Of a DNA stretch of 64,000 nt, positions 59,577-62,314 are shown piece after piece; position 1 is the first letter of the stretch, and the number at the start of each line of letters is the position of its first letter. The DNA comes from an uncultured Bacteroidota bacterium. GTDB taxonomy: Bacteria > Bacteroidota > Bacteroidia > Chitinophagales > Chitinophagaceae. Location: assembly GCA_903837525.1 (NCBI GenBank), contig CAILUU010000055.1:54380-118379 (forward strand), in the 5' to 3' direction. The notes beneath the pieces are model-generated. The model was not told where the DNA came from, searched no databases, and saw only the letters and a list, made by a program, of their open reading frames with translations. The position numbers were made by a program, and so were the translations under genes.

Positions 59577-59680
59577 CTTTTCCCCTTTTGAGAAAATGGC
59601 CTATATTTGCAGCCCGTAAAACGGATTAAGCTATGTCAGTCTGAGCTTGTCGAAGACGAGGTAGCTAATTTTTTACGAAT

Positions 59681-59754
59681 GTCGGGGTAGCTCAGCTGGT
59701 TAGAGCATCGGATTCATAACCCGAAGGTCGGCAGTTCAAGTCTGCTTCCCGATA
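59681..59754 (+). tRNA. tRNA-Met (CAT anticodon)
   Basis: GTCGGGG acceptor, GCTC-AGCTGGTTA-GAGC D-arm, TTCATAA anticodon loop, GGCAG-TTCAAGT-CTGCT T-arm, TCCCGAT acceptor 3' strand. Confidence 0.9.
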
Positions 59755-59755
59755 C

Positions 59756-59785
59756 AAAGCCTTTTGAATGAAAGGCTTTTTTATT
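59756..59785 (+). terminator. intrinsic terminator after tRNA-Met
   Basis: AAAGCCTTT/AAAGGCTTT plus T-run. Confidence 0.75.
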
Positions 59786-59792
59786 TATAAAA

Positions 59793-59867
59793 TAAGGTGT
59801 AGCTCAGCTGATTAGAGCATCCCGATTGCTATCGGGAAGGTCGGCAGTTCAAGTCTGCTTCCTTTGC
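59793..59867 (+). pseudogene. tRNA-Met-derived tRNA-like element with anticodon arm replaced by palindrome TCCCGAT-TGCT-ATCGGGA
   Basis: D-arm 22/23 and variable/T-arm 27/27 identical to 59681-59754; anticodon arm is a 7-bp stem/4-nt loop; acceptor poorly paired. Confidence 0.7.
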
Positions 59868-59872
59868 CTTAG

Positions 59873-59954
59873 TTCGTGGCACACGAAACATTCTAATGAC
59901 TTGGTTCATGTCAACTTATCCAAATACATCGGTTCGTGAAGATACGAACCGATG
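59873..59954. repeat. two REP-like hairpins: TTCGTG-GCA-CACGAA and CATCGGTTCGT-GAAGAT-ACGAACCGATG
   Basis: 6-bp and 11-bp perfect stems sharing the TTCGTG/ACGAA core. Confidence 0.7.
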
Positions 59955-59961
59955 CTAAGAG

Positions 59962-62033: not shown

Positions 62034-62314
62034 CTATTTTTTAGCTTTTTAGCCAGTAAAATCAAGGGTTTTATTTAAATACCAGCGGTAGATTTGTTTT
62101 AGAGCTTCAGTGGCAGCCTGTCCCGATAGTTATTTGGATCACAATCCGTTCATCTTCAACAATATAAAAGCATTATAGACCTTTATAGAAGGTTAACATC
62201 CAATCAACACGAAATTTTTGTTACAGATAACCAAGATAAATTCTCTAATATTTAGAAGTTCTAAAACAAAAAAATCCCATAAGCTGTAACCTAAATCTGT
62301 GGTAAAAATTAAAA

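Follow-up and report, generated by a model that had tools for sequence, protein, structure and literature searches.

SLX1 is a branch-specific nuclease whose partner is SLX4. To our knowledge, GIY-YIG domains of the UPF0213/SLX1 type have no tie to tRNA genes or palindromes. RAYTs, considered here together with REP elements, are Y1 tyrosine transposases. In T-even phages, SegB is a free-standing GIY-YIG homing endonuclease adjoining tRNA genes. SegB promotes tandem amplification of tRNA-containing segments, for which its authors propose cutting and recombination between short homologies (PMC13096335).

The locus compared here with these systems lies in a window of 64,000 nucleotides (the whole stretch of DNA analyzed) from an uncultured bacterium of the Chitinophagaceae. 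An intact parent tRNA-Met gene with the anticodon CAT was located at 59681..59755 (+ strand) by ARAGORN and by Rfam RF00005, with a score of 61 bits. The spacer behind it contains an intrinsic terminator, read from the sequence as AAGCCTTTTGAATGAAAGGCTT followed by a T run (59757..59786, +), and the same kind of stem-loop was found 3' of this tRNA-Met in congener G014. A tRNA-Met-like copy without a usable anticodon loop follows at 59793..59867 (+), separated from the parent by 37 nt and not by 39 nt as originally predicted. A single REP of a second family, TGAGCTTGTCGAAG, is situated 25 nt upstream of the tRNA-Met gene (59642..59655, +).

Alignment of the copy to the parent showed that homology spans GTAGCTCAG to CTGCTTCC. 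The D arm differs from that of the parent by one change (GG to GA) and the T arm is identical, while the acceptor stem has lost its 5' strand as well as its 3' end, which agrees with the decayed acceptor stem of the original prediction. In place of the anticodon arm, at 59820..59837 (+), the sequence, the pattern match and folding all indicated the palindrome TCCCGATTGCTATCGGGA; when folded, the arm TCCCGAT-TGCT-ATCGGGA pairs over 7 bp around a 4-nt loop. Alignment and folding thus bore out the predicted D- and T-arm homology, stem and loop, and the palindrome pattern found no match in 100 shuffles of the window. The tRNA copy is followed at 59866-59960 by a different dispersed palindromic repeat, GTTCGTG..CACGAAC, of which the genome has several related copies in other places.

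With Rfam, the copy scored 30.9 bits, against a gathering score of 29, and it is a clear outlier, since all other tRNAs of the genome reached at least 50.8 bits under the same scoring. ARAGORN reported it as 'tRNA-???' and assigned no amino acid. The 7-nt anticodon loop on a 5-bp stem, the readable anticodon and the 7-bp acceptor stem of a functional tRNA are all missing; the ends have diverged, and the congeners lack the copy, so that it is not a functional tRNA conserved across the genus. The window copy is unable to decode normally. An atypical but working tRNA whose loop has 8 nt (a frameshift suppressor, for instance) would agree with a score just above the gathering threshold; however, the acceptor end is unconserved, the loop closes to 4 nt, the score is 20 bits below that of the weakest other tRNA and the genus shows no conservation, and this reading appears exceedingly improbable. 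A functional tRNA was rejected on the ARAGORN call and the bit scores.

Integrase-type elements are another conceivable source, since the partial tRNAs that they leave behind (attR) are common in prokaryotes (PMC9897764) and are often mis-annotated as tRNAs. The copy, however, has kept its D arm and is missing the 3' end of the tRNA, the part duplicated by integrases. The genes flanking the locus encode a dehydrogenase E1 and a multi-S1-domain (ribosomal S1-like) protein, with no integrase between them. An integrase att site was rejected on the differing 3' end and the absence of a nearby integrase, and we regard this origin as very improbable.

The palindrome itself had been described as a dispersed element, which held for sister genomes and not for this one. 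CCCGATNGCTATCGGG occurs once in this 2.17-Mb genome, near-matches are no commoner than in the reversed control, and the supposed half-like copy near 62119-62130 corresponds to a weak match at 62121 that covers only 15 of 18 bases. A REP family within the genome, with many intergenic copies, was rejected on this single exact copy and the control-level near-matches; the genome search found the palindrome absent elsewhere, an outcome named beforehand as counting against the within-genome version, which fails. Among 39 relatives, the palindrome was dispersed in 11, with a maximum of 17 copies in G003 and none in the reversed control. Across relatives, the correlation between REP counts and GIY-YIG counts was weak by eye, and literature searches for the palindrome and for the second REP sequence returned nothing relevant.

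These results bear on the reading of the locus as a plain tandem duplicate of tRNA-Met whose anticodon hairpin subsequently took up a REP-like palindrome, with no nuclease involved. In its favour, the dispersed REP TCCCGATNGCTATCGGGA, common in congeners, agrees exactly with the loop TGCT, and no GIY-YIG ORF lies at the window locus. On the other hand, this genome has only one exact copy of the palindrome, and replacement of this arm is found again in various phyla and tRNA types, with loops that are not of the REP kind and with a tie to GIY-YIG ORFs, so that we consider this history rather unlikely.

For the recurrence, a pattern composed of D stem, CCCGATNNNNATCGGG and T loop was searched. 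It matched 8 of 399 genomes of the order, with none in the reversed control, and at least 117 stretches of GTDB genomes. Ten matches of the form GAGCGGCCCGAT were removed as carB-like coding sequence, after which at least 144 unique copies in 110 loci were retained, 58 with a tandem neighbour. Among the matches listed, the copies were mostly from Bacteroidota, with some from Patescibacteria, Ignavibacteria, Chloroflexota and others. Searches of the open-licence literature combining GIY-YIG with Bacteroidetes/tRNA gene, REP, UPF0213 or palindromes found no description of this class, which is apparently undescribed and widespread, mainly in Bacteroidota.

Hairpin-armed copies often adjoin the intact parent tRNA. 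Five of them directly precede an intact tRNA-Ala in Niastella caeni, six lie 3' of a tRNA-Arg in Chryseobacterium, and those of Algoriphagus adjoin tRNA-Lys and tRNA-Pro genes. The replaced arm is the anticodon arm, sometimes the D arm or the T loop. The window copy shares with the class a tRNA-like body with a hairpin-replaced arm next to an intact parent, and it differs in having no GIY-YIG ORF between the two. At locus L081 (G014:C40, 1495-1670), three 57-nt tandem units were observed before a tRNA-Met, with the palindrome replacing the D-stem side and not the anticodon arm.

The anticodon of the nearby parent was present in the copy loop in 15 of 59 cases, compared with 5.4 in shuffles, and in 11 of 45 compared with 3.2 after repeats were collapsed. 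Since parental anticodons are kept above chance, the loop tends to derive from the parent while the stem is replaced, and simple capture of one REP sequence does not account for the class. The original suggestion of a palindromic element recombined into a tRNA copy is therefore insufficient for the class, and it may still apply to the window copy, whose loop TGCT fits the REP loop NGCT. Retained anticodons would also suit copies that are expressed and act as RNAs in their own right, e.g. as anticodon-nuclease decoys or regulators stabilized by the hairpin, as would the arrays directly before intact tRNA genes and the stable folding of the window copy. However, the copies are truncated variably, with the acceptor stem or the 5' half missing from many, the window copy is placed behind a terminator, and the anticodon is gone from many loops; such a role appears improbable.

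The class hairpins often have TCC..GGA ends, and their interior varies among GAT/ATC, GAC/GTC, GAA/TTC, GCC/GGC, GCA/TGC and CAC/GTG. When right halves were swapped among loci, the mean stem length dropped from 5.05 to 4.20, and none of 200 swaps reached the real value. A predicted GAC/GTC variant in the tRNA frame was found in 5 of 93 congeners and not in the reversed control. Judged from these sequence comparisons, the hairpin, and not its letters, seems to be what the class retains. The original prediction missed the recurrence in many genomes and tRNAs, this variety of hairpin sequences and the link to GIY-YIG ORFs.

Among the matches listed, a small GIY-YIG ORF was close to 53 of 144 copies, whereas about 63% of the palindromic copies surveyed had no such ORF in reach. 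The ORF was upstream of the copy in 39 of the listed cases, and in 19 of these 39 its stop codon was at an identical position, overlapping the D arm. A second survey was anchored on the GIY-YIG ORFs and drew on the best-scoring matches, with a few repeated loci included, and not on a random sample; because of this choice, its counts are not population frequencies. With this reservation, an intact tRNA was present within 200 nt upstream or directly downstream in 51 of 71 ORFs with enough flank, and a GC-rich non-terminator hairpin in 50 of 71 distinct 3' windows, compared with 11 of 239 control windows from the same loci. As a second control, windows on the tRNAs of this genome gave such a hairpin in 5 of 30 cases.

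The cassette ORF consists of a single GIY-YIG domain of 80-100 aa. PF01541 matched all 16 of 16 GIY-YIG members, profile A1 matched 78 of 118 relatives, and the family's expected Tyr, Gly, Arg, His and Glu are among the invariant residues of the class ORFs. The GIY-YIG fold was predicted with a pLDDT of 95. An intact GIY-YIG catalytic domain is thus found in the class and not in the window. The nearest solved structures were UPF0213, SLX1 and I-TevI, of which only the UPF0213 match was below E = 0.001, and by sequence the closest solved relatives were 1zg2, 1ywl and SLX1. In L184, L222 and similar loci, the N-terminal end of the GIY-YIG reading frame was observed to run through the T arm of the preceding tRNA (e.g. 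RRSGVQVPSAPP), a likely source of wrong gene starts.

The same tRNA-Met site differs among congeners. GIY-YIG cassettes ending in a tRNA-Met fragment are present in G003 and one cassette in G438; G016 carries a decayed GIY-YIG with a tRNA fragment, G006 fragments only, and neither G014 nor G015 has anything at the site. With regard to homing (cutting and copying into an element-less allele), this one tRNA thus showed occupied, decayed and empty sites. The window copy fits the end of this decay series, although its palindrome differs from the TCCGCC..GGCGGA type carried by the congener cassettes at this tRNA-Met, and because of this difference direct descent from those cassettes is not claimed. 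Tandem repetition was most regular in G293, a 7-contig genome, where five GIY-YIG/tRNA-Asp-like units follow one another at an exact 365-bp spacing (L260, G293:C3:41300-45200); the four full unit-to-unit intervals are identical, which points to recent amplification.

Our preferred explanation, held with moderate confidence, is that the window copy is the leftover, non-decoding tRNA-Met-derived end of a small, mobile GIY-YIG cassette of the homing type, from a class whose nuclease would cut DNA and which would spread by recombination. The cassette would comprise an intact tRNA, a terminator, the GIY-YIG nuclease ORF and the modified tRNA copy, and in this genome the ORF would have been lost or never present. 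The most likely targets of the class nuclease are tRNA genes or DNA close to them, and repair by recombination via the duplicated tRNA arms would copy the cassette or amplify it in tandem, as proposed for phage SegB. One side of the cassette would keep the intact tRNA, and on the other side the copy would have its arm rebuilt as a strong hairpin of varying sequence. With this hairpin, the copy is probably hard to target and ill suited as a partner in conversion with the functional tRNA; alternatively, the hairpin may be the structure recognized by the nuclease.

A further GIY-YIG gene, L227/L330 (G000:C54:28900-29193), the only small free-standing one in this genome, lies far away from all tRNA genes. 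On either side it has the second-family REP TGAGCTTGTCGAAG in the form of an exact 26-nt inverted repeat, so that two of the six exact copies of this REP in the genome flank it. The motif TGAGC-N4-6-CGAA occurred within 200 nt in 24 of 26 loci homologous to L227, on both sides in 12, and its density was 5.4 per kb near the gene compared with 0.67 per kb elsewhere in the same loci; none was found in 83 tRNA-type loci. Together with L331-L350, L227/L330 forms a GIY-YIG subfamily located off tRNAs with flanking TGAGC..CGAAG REPs, which in several loci occur as long exact inverted pairs of 25-34 nt.

This arrangement suggests that GIY-YIG genes and REP-like hairpins are linked more widely. Small GIY-YIG nucleases might even be a second, independent kind of enzyme that maintains and spreads REP-like hairpins, with the hairpin in the rebuilt copy in the tRNA branch and the gene between inverted REPs in the other; hairpin or branched DNA would then be recognized in the manner of SLX1, with no fixed sequence. 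We offer this idea tentatively, leaning against it at present. If the nucleases act on hairpins, they would be candidate enzymes for REP-like families of unexplained spread.

For the many tRNA-like genes listed as 'undetermined' in Bacteroidota genomes, and for their tandem arrays of tRNA pseudogenes, the class offers a testable reason, and it connects tRNA genes and dispersed palindromes with a large family of small GIY-YIG proteins that are unassigned. For annotators, it carries the warning that tRNA sequence encodes the ends of these GIY-YIG ORFs.

Compared with known systems, the cassette ORFs have their closest solved relatives, by both sequence and fold, in GIY-YIG domains of the UPF0213/SLX1 type. 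Fragments at integrase att sites (PMC9897764) are likewise partial tRNA copies that score as odd tRNAs, whereas the window copy has no integrase, no conserved 3' end and an arm replaced by a palindrome. With REP elements and RAYTs, the class shares short dispersed GC-rich hairpins, and the palindrome of the window is such a sequence in sister genomes; in contrast, the linked enzyme here is a GIY-YIG protein and the hairpins lie inside tRNA copies. SegB is phage-borne, whereas the cassettes here are chromosomal and encode a single domain of 80-100 aa, often with the stop codon in a tRNA D arm; the portions of the SegB report considered here describe no tRNA copy with a hairpin-replaced arm (PMC13096335). 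The cassette nevertheless appears most like phage SegB, with which it shares a GIY-YIG gene beside tRNA genes and tandem amplification of tRNA-containing segments (PMC13096335), and by analogy the same mechanism is proposed here.
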